Part shown: piece after piece, positions 3,259 through 62,330 of the stretch
Layout of the letters: each line of letters opens with the position of its first letter
Position numbering within the stretch: the first letter of the stretch is position 1
IMG/VR virus record: IMGVR_UViG_3300006339_000005
Span: 62,001 to 126,000 of that record
DNA from: a virus
DNA length: 64,000 nucleotides
Strand: one strand, 5' to 3'
Position numbers and translations under genes: made by a program
Notes under the pieces: generated by a model
What the model was told of the DNA's origin: nothing
What the model saw: the letters and a program-made list of their open reading frames with translations, nothing else
Database searches by the model: none

Positions 3259-4017
3259 ATGAGCGATTTAGCTACACAAAAACAAGAAGTATTTGACTAT
3301 GTAAACCTATCATTAGGTGGGGGTATGGTTGATGTTGAGCTAGACCCAGCTCATTATGAAGAAGCCCTTAAAAAGGCCTTTGCTAAATTTAGACAACGAT
3401 CTGATAATTCTGTTGAAGAATCGTATTTGTTTTTACCAACAGTAGTTGATCAAAATACTTATATTTTACCAGAAGAAGTGGTTGAAGTTAGACGTATACA
3501 TAGACGGTCAATTGGATCACGTACTGGTGGTGGTGATGGCGGCACATTATTTGAACCTTTTAATTTAGCATATACAAATACCTATCTATTAGCAAGTACA
3601 AATATGGGTGGATTAGCTACATATGAATTATTTGCAGGGTATCAAGAACTTGTTGGAAGAATGTTTGGTAGTTTTATTGAATTTAAATGGAACACTACTA
3701 CTAAAGAATTAACAATATTACAACGTCCTCGTGCTGAAGAAGAATTACTATTATATGCTTATAATTTCCGTCCAGATAGCCAATTATTAAAAGACTATCT
3801 AGCTGTACAATGGTTAAAAGATTATACACTTGCTACTTGTAAATATATGCTTGGTGAAGCACGAAGCAAATTTGCCACAGTAGCTGGTCCACAAGGTGGT
3901 ACATCACTTAATGGTGATGCTCTAAAAGCCGAAGCTATTGCTGAAATACAGCAACTTGATGAAGAACTTAAATTACAAGTTGCAGGTGGGCAAGGTTACG
4001 GCTTCTCAATTGGTTAA
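3259..4017 (+). CDS. 13: Neck protein gp13-like
   Basis: A 252-residue head-neck connector protein. It matches T4 gp13 in its VNLSLGGGMVDVELDPAHYE opening, the following amphipathic helix, a beta-rich middle, and a C-terminal QWLKDYTLATCKYMLGEARS helix followed by a helix of alternating acidic residues (ALKAEAIAEIQQLDEELK). I chose the ATG at 3259 because GGAGAG lies 8 bases upstream and a late promoter lies just before that; an in-frame ATG at 3220 would place the promoter inside the gene. It is the first gene of the plus-strand virion region and partner of gp14 on the other strand. Confidence 0.8.
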   Translation: MSDLATQKQEVFDYVNLSLGGGMVDVELDPAHYEEALKKAFAKFRQRSDNSVEESYLFLPTVVDQNTYILPEEVVEVRRIHRRSIGSRTGGGDGGTLFEPFNLAYTNTYLLASTNMGGLATYELFAGYQELVGRMFGSFIEFKWNTTTKELTILQRPRAEEELLLYAYNFRPDSQLLKDYLAVQWLKDYTLATCKYMLGEARSKFATVAGPQGGTSLNGDALKAEAIAEIQQLDEELKLQVAGGQGYGFSIG

Positions 4018-5104: not shown

Positions 5105-8100
5105 ATGGCTAATTTAGTATCACCAGGCGTACAAGTTCAAGTTATAGACGAAAGTTTCTATACACCAGCTGAACCGGGTACAGTACCTATGATATTCTTT
5201 GTATCTGCACAAGATAAGGCAAATGGTGCAGGAACAGGAACAGCGACAGGTACCACACAAAAACAAGCAGGAACACCTTTCTTGCTAACATCACAAAGAG
5301 AATTAACAGAAACATTTGGAGATCCAAGTTTCTATACAGATACAAATAACAATCCAATTAATGGCAGTGAGCTTAACGAATACGGATTACAAGCGGCTTA
5401 TTCATACCTAGGTGTGAGTAACAGAGCATGGGTAACAAGAGCTGACGTTAACACTACAGAATTACTTGCAACGGCAACTGAGCCGGCGGCAGATCCTGCA
5501 GATGGAACATTTTGGTTTGATACAGGAAATACTTTATGGGGCATTTTTGAATGGAACGCTAACGCGGCTACTGTCACTGGTGGACAGACATTTACTAATA
5601 AAATACCTTATGTAATAACAGACGAAACTAAAGTAACATCAGGCGTACCTAAGACATCCGTTGGTCAAGTAGGAGATTACGCCGTTGTTGCAACAACTAC
5701 ATTAAACAAAATATTTTACAAAAACACAGGAGGTGTTTGGGTACAATTAGGAACAACTAATTGGGTTTCAGCACATCCGACAGTAACAGGAACAGAAAGC
5801 AATCCAACTATTACAAACACAGCTAGTATGAGTGTTAATGCTACAGTTGTAACTTCAGGTGGAACAGCTTTAGCTGATGTTGTAAGTGCTCTTAACGGAG
5901 CAAGTATTGCCGGTGTAACTTCAGCGGTTGTTGATGGTAAATTTGAAATTTACTCAACAGGCGTAGATGTTGTATTAGCAACAAACAGTTCAACATTACT
6001 TTCAGAAATTGGTTTAACAGCTGGAACATTTAAAGCACCAGCATTACAAATTACACCGCATACTGACGTACCAGAATTTAAATTGTCTGATACTGCACCA
6101 AGACCAACAGGGTCTATTTGGATTAAAACTACACAACCTAACTTAGGTGCTCGTTTTAGAGTTAAGAAATTTAACGGAACGACTAATCTTTGGGAAGATG
6201 TTGTAGCACCAATGTACAGTACTAATCATTCAGCATTGTTTAACTTAGACAAAGCTGGTGGCGGAGTTAATCTAGCAGTAGGTACTTTATTTGTTAATTA
6301 CAATAACGCTGAAGTTAGTCCAATTTTAGCAGATTTTAAAATTCATAGACGTATTTCTACAGGAAACACAACTATTACAAGTGATATAATTGCCGCTCAA
6401 CTTACAGCGAACACTTATGCATTTAATATCCAAGAGTCTATTGTTGGACAAGAAGCTCTAGGAGCAGATGTAACAGTTAGTGTTACAACTACAGCGGCAT
6501 CAAGTGATGCTGACGAAATTGCAGGTGCAATTAACTCAGCAGGATTTACTAACGTTGAAGCTTCAGTAGATGCTTCAAATAGAATTGTTATTTCACATAA
6601 TGATGGTGGTGAATTCCGTATTGAAGATACCGGTGGCGTACTTACCTTAGCTGGATATATAGCTTATGTAGATACTACAACAGGTACACCTAACTTGTAT
6701 GCGGCGCCAACAGGCGACAGTACACACAGTTTAGTTGCAAGTAACTGGCAAGTATTAACTTATACAGCAGGATCAGATGCACCAACTGCCTTAACAACAG
6801 ATAACAGATTATGGTACAGTTCAATTGTTGACGAAGTTGACATGATGGTCCACAATGGTACTACTTGGGTAGGATATCAAGATTCGACTAGCCCGTTTTA
6901 TGCGGTTGCGTCAGCTGATAAAACTGACCCAGCTGGTCCGATTGTAGCGGCAACAGAGCCAACTGTACAATCAGATGGTACTGCACTTAAAAATGGTGAC
7001 CTTTGGATTTCAACAGCAGATGTTGAAAACTATCCACAAATTTACAAATATAACGGATCTACTTTAAAGTTTGTTTTAATTGATTCAAGTGATCAAACAA
7101 CTGAAGATGGCGTTTTATTTGCAGATGCACGTTACAATACAGCAGGTGCTAATTCAGATAAAGACGGAACTATTGCGGCACTATTAGTAAGTAACTTTAT
7201 TGATACTGACGCTCCAGATCCAGCACTATATCCAAAAGGTATGTTGCTTTATAATCTACGTAGAAGTGGTTTTAATGTTAAAAAGTTTGTTCGTAACTAT
7301 GTTAACACATCTACAGACAATATTAGATTTGGCGACGAATCACAAGATGCCTACTATGCACACCGTTGGGTTACTGAATCAGCTAACCAACCAAATGGTG
7401 CAGGTAGCTTTGGACGTAAAGCACAACGTAAAGTTGTTGTACAAGGACTTCAAGCACTAGTAAATAGCAACCAGAAAATTAGAGATGATGAATCAAGGTT
7501 GTTTAACTTAATGGCTTGTCCTGGATATCCAGAACTAATTGGTGAAATGGTTACATTAAACTATGATAGAAGCCTAAGTGCATTTATTATAGGTGACTCA
7601 CCGTTTAGGTTAACACCGGATGCAACTTCACTTAACAACTGGGGCAAAAATACAGCTCTAGCAGTTGAAGATAATGACGATGGGCTTGTTACTTTTGATG
7701 AATACTTAGGTGTATTTTATCCAAGTTTATTCACAAGTGACAACGCAGGTAACAACGTAGTTGTTCCACCAAGTCATGCAACATTAAGAACATTTGCATT
7801 AAGCGATCAAGTTTCGTTTCCATGGTTTGCACCAGCAGGAACAAGACGTGGTGGCATTACAAACGCAAGTGCGGCAGGTTACATTGACAACGAAGGTGAA
7901 TTTGTAAGTACTGCACTTAATGAAGGGCAACGTGACACGTTATATAGCAACGCTATTAACCCAATTACGTTCCTAACAGGAGCAGGGTTAGTAATCTTTG
8001 GACAAAAGACAAGAGCCAAGAATGCATCGGCACTTGATAGAATTAACGTAGCACGTCTAGTAATTTACTTACGTGGGCAACTTAAAAAACTTGCTAAACC

Positions 8101-43851: not shown

Positions 43852-44439
43852 ATGCCAAATTTAATACCTATGGTTGTTGAGTCAACCAACAAGGGCGAAC
43901 GTGCTTATGACATTTATAGTAGGCTACTAAAAGATAGAATTATCTTTTTAACAGGACCAATTGACGAAGATAGTGCCGCTTCAGTTTGTGCTCAATTACT
44001 ATTTTTAGAATCAGTTAGTAAGGATAAAGATATTTCTATGTACATACAATCGCCAGGTGGATATGTTCATTCAGGATTAGCAATTTATGATACAATGCAA
44101 TATGTTAAACCTGATGTATCAACTGCTTGTATTGGCATGGCCGCATCAGCTGGTTCATTGTTATTAATGGCGGGAGCAAACGGAAAACGTATTGCTTTAC
44201 CTAATAGTAAAATAATGATTCACCAACCATCGGGTGGATTTAGAGGACAAGCAACTGACATGGAAATTCATGTTAAGGATATACTTGAAACAAAAGAACG
44301 TTTGAATAGATTGTATGCTAAACACACAAAGCAAGACCTAAAGGTTGTTACAGAAGCAATGGAACGTGATAAGTTTATGACACCCGAGGAGGCTATTAGT
44401 TTTGGTTTGATTGACAAAATTGAGGAGCACCGTAAGTGA
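43852..44439 (+). CDS. clpP: ClpP-type serine protease
   Basis: A 195-residue, full-length ClpP. The catalytic triad is visible: S99 (GMAASAG), H124 (IMIHQPSGG) and D173 (ERDKFM). [16 protein letters not shown] is the oxyanion-region signature. ClpP forms a barrel with a Clp/Hsp100 ATPase; no ATPase is in this window, so it would depend on host ClpA/ClpX or act without one. It may alter host proteolysis during infection. It overlaps the NodU-like gene (GTGA). Confidence 0.93.
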
Positions 44440-45422
44440 TAACCTGGGGTATCGTAGGTAATAGTCATGATGCCAGTATAGCAGTTTTTGACGGTGAAAA
44501 ACTTTTATGGGCCGCTTTGGCTAAAGACTTTTCGAAAGTAGACAACGATCCTCATTTAAATCCTGAACTTGTTAACGCCGCTAAAGAAGCCGGTGGTTGG
44601 CGAATGCCAGACAAAGTTGTATGGTATGAAACTCCCTTTCTAAAAACTCTTAGACAATGGTGGGCTGGCCAAGGCTGGTTACAAAAAGAAAATAATATTC
44701 ACAAATATTTAAGACAATGGGATATTAAGTGTCCTATTAAATTTGCTATTCATCATAATAGTCATGCCGCATATGGTTATTATACTAGTGGACTTCCTAA
44801 TGCAACTGTAATAGTTTTAGACAGCATTGGTGAGTGGGAATGTTTTACTATATGGGCGTGTTATGATGATAAGATGAAAAAAATTTATTCACAAAAGTAT
44901 CCACATAGTATAGGACTATTTTATTCAGCATTGACACAACGTCTTGGGTTTAAAGCAAACCGAGACGAATATAAAGTTGATCCTTTGGGCACACCTATTA
45001 AAGTAGAAGAAAATATAAACTTACTAAATGATCTATTAAGTACTTTCGTAGAAGGTCCATTAAATGGAGACTTACCTGGAGTTAAGTTTAAAGTTAATAT
45101 GCATAAAGGATGTGATTGGTATAAACCAGAATTAAAATCAGATATGGATATGGCAAGACTTGCAAGTGCAACTCAATGTGCATTTGAGTTAATGCTTAAA
45201 TCAAACACTAAATGGTGTTGGAATCATTTACCAAGTCGCAATCTTATTATAACAGGAGGGTGTGCATTAAATAAGACAGCAGTCAACATGGTTAAGAAAG
45301 GTTGGCATAATGTTTGGGTACCACCAAACCCAGGAGATCCAGGTTCATGTATTGGCGGTGTATTGGCATCGACAAAACAACATATTGACTTTGATTCTAA
45401 AATATGGTATAATAACAACTAA
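44436..45422 (+). CDS. NodU/TobZ-type carbamoyltransferase, N-terminal domain only
   Basis: A 328-residue protein that corresponds to the Kae1-like N-terminal domain of NodU-type O-carbamoyltransferases: [35 protein letters not shown] with the metal-binding His pair, [14 protein letters not shown], and [11 protein letters not shown] near the end. Full-length members are about 570 residues; the C-terminal YrdC-like part is absent, so the two-step reaction may be incomplete or shared. The GTG start overlaps the ClpP stop. Confidence 0.8.
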
Positions 45423-49021: not shown

Positions 49022-49294
49022 ATGCCGAGCGAACTCTTAAATACTAAAAACACTTCCAAAACAACTCATACCATTACCAATTCAAATTTTAAAGACGTAG
49101 AACTAGTCAAACTCATGACCGACGCCTTACGTAATTACACTCGTTATAGAGTTCGTGTGGAGGGCTGGTCTAAAGAGTACAGCAGGCATTTTGAATCAGA
49201 TATCAAAACTATTGAACATTGGAACACATTAGACTTTAACTATGATCCACTGTACAATACATTTGTTTTTACGCACAGGAGGAAAAAACAATGA
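49022..49294 (+). CDS. 90-residue protein upstream of the synthetase
   Basis: A basic protein (RNYTRYRVRVEGWSKEYSRH). No domain recognised. I took the ATG at 49022; a GCTAAATA late-promoter-like element sits 10 bases before it. The 3' end has AGGAGG, which is the ribosome-binding site of the synthetase gene, and overlaps it by ATGA. Coupling suggests joint function. Confidence 0.6.
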   Translation: MPSELLNTKNTSKTTHTITNSNFKDVELVKLMTDALRNYTRYRVRVEGWSKEYSRHFESDIKTIEHWNTLDFNYDPLYNTFVFTHRRKKQ

Positions 49295-50142
49295 CCCAAC
49301 TTATCAATCCGGAGCACTTTACCGAAACTGTCGGCCTATTAAGGTCGTTTTTTTTGGATAGGGGATTTCAAGAAGTACACACACAAAACAGATTAAGCAT
49401 ACTGGCGGCTTGTGAAGATCCAACCACAGTAAGCACTTATAATTACGCCGGCAATGTTTGGCCGTTACCACAGACAGGCCAAATGTGGCTAGAATACGAA
49501 CTACTTACACGCCCCTCTTCGAAGGGGTTTTTTTGTGTCTCCACTTCCTACAGACAGGAACCAAACCCAATTGAAGGACGACACGATCTAATATTTCCGA
49601 TGTTTGAGTTTGAGTTTCCTGGTACAATCACGGAGCTGGAGAATATGGAAAAGGAGCTTATAGCACACATGGGTTATGGAACTCAAGATGAAGTAATTGC
49701 TAAAGACTATAGCAAATGGGCAGAAGAATTTGGAGTAGAAGAACTAACTCATACTGAAGAAGAGCTTATGCATAAACAGTGGCAAGGCAGAGTATGTATG
49801 ATTAAAAACTTTCCAAACCACACTAGTCCATTTTGGAATATGAAACAAAACGGAGACGGAACTGCCGCTAAGATAGATGTTATTATATCAGGACAAGAAA
49901 CAATAGGATCAGCTGAACGAAGTAGTGATCCGGATGAAATGTGGCATCAGTTTCATACAATAAGTGAAGGAATGTATGCAGAATTATTGTTTGGACAGTT
50001 TGGTAAAGAACGTGTAGAAAAAGAATTAAAAGACTTTTTAGCCCATGACTTTATACCTAGAGTAGGCGGAGGTATTGGTTTAACTAGATTAATTCGTGCA
50101 AACGAAGATTATAAAGCTAGGGGATTACACGCTCATATGTAA
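49291..50142 (+). CDS. Stand-alone class II aminoacyl-tRNA synthetase core (Asp/Asn/Lys type)
   Basis: A 283-residue catalytic domain of the class IIb group. Motif 1 region: LLRSFFLDRGFQEVHTQNRL; motif 2: SYRQE (R88, E90) followed by RHDLIFPMFEFEF; motif 3: GGGIGLTRL with R266. The GQETIGSAERSSDPDEM segment matches the Asp/Asn/Lys subgroup. The N-terminal OB anticodon-binding domain is missing, as in EpmA (GenX) or archaeal AsnA, so it either charges tRNA without reading the anticodon or acts on another substrate. A tRNA gene begins 5 bases after its stop. Two terminator-like hairpins lie inside its 5' third. Confidence 0.85.
   Translation: MTQLINPEHFTETVGLLRSFFLDRGFQEVHTQNRLSILAACEDPTTVSTYNYAGNVWPLPQTGQMWLEYELLTRPSSKGFFCVSTSYRQEPNPIEGRHDLIFPMFEFEFPGTITELENMEKELIAHMGYGTQDEVIAKDYSKWAEEFGVEELTHTEEELMHKQWQGRVCMIKNFPNHTSPFWNMKQNGDGTAAKIDVIISGQETIGSAERSSDPDEMWHQFHTISEGMYAELLFGQFGKERVEKELKDFLAHDFIPRVGGGIGLTRLIRANEDYKARGLHAHM
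49332..49355 (+). terminator. Terminator-like hairpin inside the synthetase gene, first
   Basis: CGGCC pairs with GGTCG (one G-T pair) around a 6-base loop, followed by eight T residues. It lies in codons 14-22 of the coding sequence. Confidence 0.5.
49512..49534 (+). terminator. Terminator-like hairpin inside the synthetase gene, second
   Basis: CCCCT pairs with AGGGG around a 6-base CTTCGA loop, followed by seven T residues: a standard intrinsic terminator placed within codons 74-82 of an open reading frame. Confidence 0.65.
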
Positions 50143-50147
50143 GACGA

Positions 50148-50234
50148 TCCGGGGTGGTGGAAACGGTAGACACGATAGCCTGTTTAGCTATTGCTTGGGA
50201 GAGCGTGGAGGTTCGAATCCTCCCCCCGGAGCCA
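50148..50234 (+). tRNA. Class II (long variable arm) tRNA with GUU anticodon; Asn by anticodon
   Basis: All arms pair: acceptor TCCGGGG/CCCCGGA, D stem GTG/CAC, anticodon stem ATAGC/GCTAT, variable arm of 15 bases with a 4-pair stem (TGCT/AGCG), T stem GGAGG/CCTCC with loop TTCGAAT, and encoded GCCA. The anticodon loop CTGTTTA gives anticodon GTT at 50182-50184, which reads Asn codons. The discriminator is G, as in bacterial tRNA-Asn. The D arm (GGTGGAA...GGTAGACAC) and long variable arm are instead typical of tRNA-Leu. So it is a chimera: Leu-type body with Asn anticodon and discriminator. Confidence 0.88.
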
Positions 50235-52973: not shown

Positions 52974-54104
52974 CTATCTATTCATTATAAACATACTTCC
53001 AAACTTTGTATTAACCGCGTCACTTAGATTAACGTCCTCTTGTTTATAATACCCTTCTTTGTTAAGTTTATCTTGTAAAAATAATTCAACCATTGTTAAC
53101 ATTCCTGATGCAGTAGTTAATTCTATTGCTGTATAATATCTATCATTATATGTTTCTGGATAAAATACTTTCTTGTATATACGTTCCTTATGCTTACCAT
53201 TTATCCTACCACCAGCTGTAATAAACAAAATTACAACATCACGTCTTGTAGTTGACACACCTCTTTTAATAATTTCAATTAACTCTTTATTAGGAATTCT
53301 TAAATCATTTATTAAGAAATCTATAAGGTTATGATGTCCTTTACGGCGTATAGTTTTATAATTTATATTTGAATGCGTAAAGCGTTCATCATCTAAGTCA
53401 GCTATAGTTCTTGCAAACGTACCTAAGCCTCCACTCGTATTAAATGCTTCATACGTATCACCGCCAATCATTAATGTTTCATATCCTGTAAGAGTAGGCA
53501 CTTCATAATATTTGCCATCTCTAATAATTGCACAATCGCCACAATACTCATTTACTAAACCATCAGCACTCCATGACAAATGATACTTTAACTTATTAGT
53601 TGCATCTTGTGATAATGCTCCAACACGTATCTTAATATGATCAACTGGATCCATATCATGCATTAAGTTGTTTGCAATAACTGTACTCATACCAGGAGCA
53701 AGTCCACAATGCGGCATTGTAAATTGGATGCCTGTTCTAGTTTCAGAAACATACTTACGATCTCTTATCCAATTATCTAATTCAGCATCTTCTGAGAAAT
53801 CAAAGTACGGAATATTACATTCCATACAAGCATTATGAATAACCATATTTTCTGTATATGGTAGAGCATTAATTATAAGTGTAAAGTCACAAACGAAATC
53901 CTGTAGTATTGAGTTGTTTGCTCCAGGATGTCTAGTATCTATTTGCTTGTAATCTTCTTCAGCAAATGCTCCCGAACGAGTAGCATTATATGGCGTCATA
54001 TCCGCTACTGTAACGCTGTAGTTTGTACGATCTTTTAAAAGATGATATACTGCACTACCTATTGCTCCTGCTCCGAATATTCCTATTTTAACTTGATCAG
54101 ACAT
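52974..54104 (-). CDS. Saccharopine/lysine-6-dehydrogenase-like oxidoreductase
   Basis: A 376-residue NAD(P)-dependent enzyme of the saccharopine dehydrogenase family. Rossmann motif GIFGAGAIGSAVYHLL at 8-23 with VTVADMT as strand 2; the catalytic domain has MPHCGLAPGMSTVIANNL and LSWSADGLVNEYCGD. Length suits lysine 6-dehydrogenase or saccharopine reductase, which act on lysine or its 2-aminoadipate semialdehyde adduct. Carboxynorspermidine dehydrogenase is a further possibility. It ends the metabolic part of the minus-strand block, and an aldehyde dehydrogenase suitable for the next lysine step is encoded upstream. Confidence 0.8.
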   Translation of the reverse strand: MSDQVKIGIFGAGAIGSAVYHLLKDRTNYSVTVADMTPYNATRSGAFAEEDYKQIDTRHPGANNSILQDFVCDFTLIINALPYTENMVIHNACMECNIPYFDFSEDAELDNWIRDRKYVSETRTGIQFTMPHCGLAPGMSTVIANNLMHDMDPVDHIKIRVGALSQDATNKLKYHLSWSADGLVNEYCGDCAIIRDGKYYEVPTLTGYETLMIGGDTYEAFNTSGGLGTFARTIADLDDERFTHSNINYKTIRRKGHHNLIDFLINDLRIPNKELIEIIKRGVSTTRRDVVILFITAGGRINGKHKERIYKKVFYPETYNDRYYTAIELTTASGMLTMVELFLQDKLNKEGYYKQEDVNLSDAVNTKFGSMFIMNR

Positions 54105-61479: not shown

Positions 61480-62330
61480 TTAATTTTTTCCCCTTGTTCT
61501 CGCAAATAATCTTTTGCTCTGTCAGATATTTCTTCTTCAAAACCGTAACGGTCTTTCTCTACATCAAATGCATCTTTCATAACTTCTGGAGTTGGTATTG
61601 AATACTCAATGTTGCATGATGTATATGCTTGAATGTATGTAGACCCAAACTCTCTTGCAACTAGTATTGCTCGTCTAACAGAGCGAGCCACCCTTGCAGG
61701 ATTTGTAGGTGCTATACGACATACATAATCAAGTTTTGCAACTCTTGCCAATCCCAACATATCCATCTTCTCATCTACTTTACCACGGGGTGACATCTTT
61801 GCAACTAGACCCTTTTGAGTCATTCCACTTTCTTGTCCACCTGTGTTACCGTAGATTTCATTGTCCAACATAATGGTTGTAAACTTCTCATGCCTAAACC
61901 AACTATGCATGAGTCCTTGAAATCCTATATCAACTAGTCCACCATCACCACACATTACTATTACATCTTTATCTTGTTCTGGAAATCGTAATTCTAATCC
62001 TCGTTTCAATCCAGATGCAACAGCATTTGTATCGCCATAGTTTCCATAAATGAATGGAACATTACCTTGACTTATTGCTAACCTTCCACAACCAGCCGTA
62101 CCACAAATAATGGTATGCTCTGGTTTTGGTAATGCAAGAAATACAATTCGTATAAAAAGAGTCATAGCACATCCGGCACACATTGGATGTTCTTCAATTA
62201 ACTCTTTGAACTTGCCCATGTCCTTAACTTTTTTAGGCTTGCCATACTGACCATGTTTAACAAGGTCTTGGTACTCAACAGGCAAGTGTTCTAAATAGCC
62301 AGGGCTAGGCCTTACAGTTGCTAATGACAT
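61476..62330 (-). CDS. porB: 2-oxoacid:ferredoxin oxidoreductase beta subunit, copy 2
   Basis: A 284-residue beta subunit. Iron-sulfur ligands C51, C54 (CAGC), C81 (AGC) and C239 (YTSC); thiamine diphosphate motif GDG at 128-130 with N162 (IYGNTGG); HPM before the first Cys pair is family-typical. It binds thiamine diphosphate and one [4Fe-4S] cluster. It starts one base after the other beta gene, from which it differs widely, so the two are old paralogues and not a recent duplication. Confidence 0.93.
   Translation of the reverse strand: MSLATVRPSPGYLEHLPVEYQDLVKHGQYGKPKKVKDMGKFKELIEEHPMCAGCAMTLFIRIVFLALPKPEHTIICGTAGCGRLAISQGNVPFIYGNYGDTNAVASGLKRGLELRFPEQDKDVIVMCGDGGLVDIGFQGLMHSWFRHEKFTTIMLDNEIYGNTGGQESGMTQKGLVAKMSPRGKVDEKMDMLGLARVAKLDYVCRIAPTNPARVARSVRRAILVAREFGSTYIQAYTSCNIEYSIPTPEVMKDAFDVEKDRYGFEEEISDRAKDYLREQGEKIK

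Follow-up and report, generated by a model that had tools for sequence, protein, structure and literature searches.

The window analyzed here is a 64,000-nucleotide stretch (positions 62,001 to 126,000) of the IMG/VR record IMGVR_UViG_3300006339_000005, a viral contig of 126.6 kb that has T4-like genes. At positions 49291-50142 of the plus strand it contains an open reading frame for a 283-residue protein resembling the class IIb catalytic core of asparaginyl-tRNA synthetase (AsnRS). After a spacer of 5 nt, and on the same strand, this frame is followed by an 87-nt tRNA gene with an encoded CCA end (50148-50234). Among the other reading frames of the window (including one at 44436-45419) are metabolic genes unusual for a phage, specifically those for a deoxynucleotide monophosphate kinase, an aldehyde dehydrogenase, a proline dehydrogenase, parts of a pyruvate:ferredoxin oxidoreductase, and a Nol-like carbamoyltransferase; a saccharopine dehydrogenase-like protein is encoded on the minus strand (52977-54104) shortly downstream of the synthetase-like gene and tRNA. 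Two terminator-like hairpins lie within the synthetase-like gene, one at 49332-49347 and one, with a T-run, at 49511-49528, shortly 5' of the segment encoding motif 2.

The protein matched Pfam PF00152 (tRNA-synt_2; E 7e-14) over the catalytic core alone. It begins at the core, and the N-terminal anticodon-binding domain is missing here and in all relatives. Coordinates, Pfam match, and alignment thus agree with the initial annotation, which had described a class IIb core lacking an anticodon-binding domain 5 nt 5' of a tRNA. The protein also matched PHROG 29758, a group with no assigned function. An AlphaFold model of the protein (pLDDT 90.7) had AsnRS as its best structural match (E 4e-17); a phmmer search of the PDB with the single window protein led nowhere.

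The likeness to AsnRS extends to the asparagine-type side chain pocket, GQ(L/M)xLE and E-IGS-xR in the two families. Specifically, GQMWLE (49477-49494) aligns with the asparagine-binding segment GQLxLE of AsnRS and ETIGSAER (49897-49920) with GEIIGGSQRE. The pocket motifs and the arginines of motif 2 (in TSYRQE; 49552-49554) and motif 3 (in GGGIGLTR; 50086-50088) are retained across the enzyme family. Unlike AsnRS, the family has an invariant glutamine (Gln-32; 49384-49386) in place of the motif 1 proline of class II synthetases, and a threonine precedes the motif 3 arginine where known class IIb enzymes have aspartate or glutamate. The window protein scored far below the cut-offs of curated AsnRS models (27 and 20 bits, where the cut-offs are 414 and 343, respectively). 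In a tree with AsnRS, AspRS, LysRS, and an EpmA-like protein, the last assigned by its length and tree position only, the family formed its own clade on a long branch. Judged from its sequence, the enzyme is a member of a separate class IIb clade that is neither AsnRS, AspRS, LysRS, nor EpmA.

The tRNA was recognized by the Rfam tRNA model with 51 bits (E 5e-8). Its D-arm and long variable arm (50192-50206; 15 nt) are those of a tRNA-Leu, and its acceptor end (U1-A72, G73) and GUU anticodon are those of a tRNA-Asn. It differs from tRNA-Leu in having G73 rather than A73 and no leucine anticodon. The anticodon loop, CUGUUUA (50180-50186), has the turn base U33 and places G34, U35, and U36 at 50182-50184, followed at 50185 by a conserved U37 where a purine would be expected, a feature absent from the initial annotation. 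The mixed identity noted in that annotation, a leucine-type body with an asparagine anticodon and discriminator, recurs in 114 distinct tRNAs adjoining the synthetase-like gene. Unlike those of tRNA-Asn, their variable arms are not short but 13-39 nt long; the extreme arms, of up to 39 nt, occur at locus L060 and its relatives, L070, and L204. Covariation was found at 21 of 24 base pairs, with all stems covarying. A chance tRNA-like sequence was ruled out by the 114 covarying relatives, and a shifted anticodon, UUA, was dropped since covariation fixes a 5-bp stem and 7-base loop. tRNA-Leu genes were among the closest other matches of model R1. At locus L016 a normal tRNA-Leu(UAA) with A73 (5858-5944) occupies the usual place of the chimeric tRNA and possibly offers a picture of its ancestor.

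IMG/VR holds at least 590 relatives of the enzyme; the loci analyzed were the best-scoring matches, not a random sample. A long-arm tRNA with G73, as detected by a purpose-written scanner that demanded a standard T-loop, lies 3' of the enzyme gene in 163 of the 231 viral loci whose sequence extends 250 nt or more beyond the gene, usually 4-12 nt away. In the reverse test, tRNAs were sought by DNA patterns independent of the enzyme, and 152 of the 154 clean folds with at least 900 nt upstream had the enzyme gene directly upstream on the same strand. The two chimeric tRNAs with no synthetase upstream are at L398 and L424. The enzyme is found without the tRNA at about 70 cellular loci and in about 30% of viral loci. 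The tRNA therefore depends on the enzyme, which also occurs alone. The initial annotation had taken each gene without the other, in related phages, as a sign against a charging pair; tRNA without synthetase is nearly absent (2/154), but synthetase without tRNA is common. The chimeric tRNA is scattered over about four distinct regions of the enzyme tree, and its chimeric form cannot be strictly required since the cellular and about 30% of the viral orthologues have no special tRNA. Taken together, gene order and sequence strongly support a functional pair of enzyme and tRNA.

The cyanophages P-SSM2, P-SSM5, and P-SSM7 carry the enzyme annotated as "tRNA ligase," and in P-SSM7 enzyme and tRNA lie within a tRNA cluster. 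In the P-SSM2 record (AY939844.2) the deposited annotation puts its tRNA-Asn within a different gene, at 164094-164179, whereas a tRNA-Asn of the chimeric kind (162083-162168) immediately follows the "tRNA ligase" gene. The same protein family was described as T4-GC 194, a sporadic cyanophage gene with no function given (PMC3037559), and a term search of that paper found neither a chimeric tRNA behind the gene nor a link to pyrimidines. A nucleotide search of phage records with the tRNA sequence led nowhere.

The 114 distinct tRNAs show an uneven pattern of conservation. Of these, 111 carry the anticodon GUU and 3 carry GUC (the aspartate variants at L024, L032, and L204); 108 have U37 and 6 have a purine there. 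At position 33, 80 tRNAs have U, 17 have A, 16 have C, and one has G. Parsimony on the enzyme tree required no change at positions 34, 35, and 73, one at position 1, three at position 36, five at position 37, and 18 at position 38, and U33 was lost or changed at least 21 times. The constancy of G73 in this set is by selection, G73 having been used as a filter, but without the filter 171 of the 172 long-arm tRNAs next to the gene still had G73, and the remaining one was a normal tRNA-Leu. Normal decoding requires U33, the turn base. Non-GUU tRNAs of the same loci, used as controls, all keep it (27/27); three control tRNAs scanned as having U37 proved to be short-arm tRNAs of this cassette read in the wrong frame. 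Thus the GUUU of the loop, four bases that are invariant in alignment A5, is kept while the turn base varies. Short-arm GUU tRNAs occur at L180, L189, L210, L239, and L244, and in one distant phage lineage (L187) the synthetase-like gene overlaps at its end with a fully canonical tRNA-Asn (3804-3877) that would decode. As short-arm and canonical versions exist, asparagine identity is shared by tRNAs of different origins.

A genome scan revealed orthologues of 51-62% identity in Patescibacteria, Dependentiae, Midichloriaceae, Pasteurella atlantica, Chitinophagaceae, and others. A search for the chimeric tRNA pattern in 12 cellular genomes found none. We ruled out the cellular orthologue as the housekeeping AsnRS because AsnRS and/or GatCAB are encoded separately: among 24 enzyme-bearing genomes, AsnRS exceeded the cut-off in 8 and GatB was found in 19. 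The commonest neighbors of the cellular gene are PyrF, PyrE, and PyrD. It adjoins pyrF/pyrE at six loci (L109, L113, L114, L116, L119, and L149), pyrD with pyrEF at L137, L151, and L155, and pyrF with an argH-like gene at L115. An ArgH-like lyase precedes the orthologue at L097 (2634-5837), L146 (2503-5846), L115, and L142; at L097 and L146, where these genes take the place of the pyr neighbors, a PRK06886 cytosine-deaminase-like amidohydrolase precedes it as well. The ArgH-like and amidohydrolase genes possibly mark a further branch of the pathway proposed below.

The first enzymes of pyrimidine synthesis often appear to be missing from the same genomes. In 16 enzyme-bearing genomes, aspartate transcarbamoylase (ATCase) gave no match in 12 and exceeded the cut-off in 2, and CarB exceeded it in 2 and fell below it in 14, against 14/14 controls for each. 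These absences rest on HMM searches of genomes that are partly incomplete metagenome assemblies and in many cases reduced (Patescibacteria, Dependentiae). Loss of pyrimidine genes is common in reduced genomes. Three enzyme-bearing genomes (G010, G020, and G021) retain CarB and/or ATCase. Among 150 Chitinophagaceae genomes, ATCase exceeded the cut-off in 141, and the single enzyme-bearing genome was without it.

Pyrimidine genes also accompany the enzyme in viruses. pyrF and/or pyrE adjoin it at about ten loci (L174-L177, L186, L216, L180, L210, L196, and L298); none were present within the fetched flanks of most viral loci, the window included. The phage "pyrE" is a short phosphoribosyltransferase that matched no NCBIfam model and was named by its similarity to a protein encoded among the clustered pyr genes of P. 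atlantica. thyX lies near the enzyme in about ten viral loci and the B12-type ribonucleotide reductase gene nrdJ in several; neither is close to the enzyme in the window. A search of 25 viral records for dihydroorotate dehydrogenase gave just one weak partial family match, so the phage would rely on the PyrD of its host. In the enzyme tree phage and cellular members are interleaved, with the P. atlantica group among marine phages, which suggests that they share their chemistry.

Our tentative preference, held with a little less than even confidence, is that this class IIb family acts outside translation and starts pyrimidines from asparagine and ATP, and that the phage tRNA is a dedicated, poorly decoding carrier of asparagine. 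From sequence and gene context we infer the use of asparagine, the reaction, the charging of the tRNA, and its carrier role. In favor of this reading are the near-exclusive occurrence of the tRNA with the enzyme, the conservation pattern of the tRNA, the pyrimidine neighbors, the apparent lack of ATCase and CarB, and the retained asparagine-type pocket. Weighing against it are the many viral loci with no pyr gene in their flanks, the reduced genomes, the genomes that retain CarB and/or ATCase, the orthologues with no special tRNA, the retention of U33 in 80 of the 114 tRNAs, that of the window included, and the canonical tRNA at L187. The enzyme would bypass CarAB and ATCase, both of them regulated, and its product would feed PyrD, PyrE, and PyrF, often those of the host. 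The reaction could plausibly be Asn + CO2 + ATP -> L-dihydroorotate + AMP + PPi, given that asparagine has five of the six ring atoms, both nitrogens included, and C2 alone is missing. By analogy, the ring closure would resemble that of dethiobiotin synthetase. Inserting CO2 in one ATP-dependent step would take the place of CarAB, PyrB, and PyrC and avoid the feedback control acting on them. The enzyme keeps the same genomic company as the de novo pathway (pyrD, pyrE, and pyrF); unlike that pathway, it would form a one-enzyme bypass from asparagine. Among the papers searched, none described an asparagine-based one-enzyme route to pyrimidines, the enzyme/tRNA pair, or the cellular gene.

A narrower and more doubtful version is that the synthesis is tRNA-dependent, with asparagine held on the viral tRNA while it is converted with CO2 and ATP to dihydroorotate in place of CarAB, PyrB, and PyrC. 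Common to both versions is that the tRNA keeps the marks for loading with asparagine (G34, U35, U/C36, G73, and U1-A72), either by AsnRS or by a non-discriminating AspRS with GatCAB. GatCAB recognizes Asp-tRNAAsn by U1-A72 (PMC9976931, PMC4206432). The viral tRNA shares U1-A72, G34/U35, and G73 with substrates of the latter system (PMC9976931) but differs from them in being a virus gene with a leucine-type body, an altered loop, and a dedicated neighbor enzyme. The GUC variants (3/114) are also compatible with a non-discriminating AspRS. With the loop features for decoding lost, the tRNA would hold asparagine for the enzyme and not for the ribosome, which would matter most where asparagine is made on tRNA only.

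The strongest rival to the pyrimidine reading is an orthogonal AsnRS/tRNA pair, in which the truncated synthetase charges the tRNA through its acceptor end and variable arm so that AAC and AAU are read during infection. We regard this as possible, although not probable. The AsnRS-like fold with its asparagine-binding residues, the nearly invariant G34-U35-U36, the obligate adjacency (152/154), and the placement of the P-SSM7 pair in a tRNA cluster are all consistent with it. Against it stand the 21 or more losses of U33 and the replacement of purine 37 by U. No part of the tRNA is more conserved than the anticodon, yet the enzyme has no domain to bind it, and orthologues without the tRNA are found in pyrimidine clusters of genomes that also encode normal AsnRS or GatCAB. 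The orthogonal charging system put forward in the initial annotation thus stands as far as functional pairing is concerned, but its role in translation is weakened by the variable U33, by U37, and by these orthologues.

An ammonia-dependent asparagine synthetase making free asparagine, whose use the tRNA merely helps, appears unlikely. Asparagine synthetase A and its archaeal relatives are likewise class IIb cores without the anticodon domain that were recruited to metabolism (PMC9437257). However, the window protein reached only 19 bits on the archaeal asparagine synthetase A model (cut-off 389), which places it in another family, and its side chain pocket is of the asparagine and not the aspartate type. 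Furthermore, free asparagine gives no reason for the pyr clusters, and unlike asparagine synthetase A the enzyme has pyrimidine genes and, in phages, a tRNA as its neighbors.

We give a low probability to an anti-defense function, in which the loop changes shield a decoding tRNA-Asn from host anticodon nucleases while the synthetase keeps charging it. Phages are known to carry tRNAs whose altered anticodon loops escape tRNA-targeting defenses (PMC10264068), but here U37 is retained rather than diversified, and the pyrimidine context and cellular orthologues are left unexplained. Recoding is very improbable: a four-base reading of AAAC/AAAU by G34-U35-U36-U37, or insertion of another amino acid at Asn codons, would accommodate U37 in 108 of 114 tRNAs and the four invariant loop bases, but the loop has seven bases. 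Nothing in the analysis pointed to another amino acid at Asn codons, as the initial annotation had suggested might occur. Least plausible is the other alternative of the initial annotation, an EpmA-like protein-modifying ligase beside a host-charged tRNA, which would explain the core-only architecture but conflicts with the tree and motifs, which set the enzyme apart from LysRS and the EpmA-like protein, with the asparagine-like pocket, and with the tight link to a tRNA of asparagine identity.

On either the pyrimidine or the translation reading, a cyanophage gene that has been catalogued since 2010 with no function gains a candidate role. Enzyme and tRNA are carried together by hundreds of ocean viruses, and the patchwork tRNA is found almost nowhere else. 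If the translation reading is true, the pair is a natural and very widespread orthogonal synthetase/tRNA system with a chimeric tRNA, useful for engineering of the genetic code. If the pyrimidine reading is true, it would mean that a pathway ranking among the most conserved in biology can begin in a new way, that a tRNA can serve nucleotide synthesis and not decoding, and that viruses have a widespread route around host control of the pyrimidine supply.
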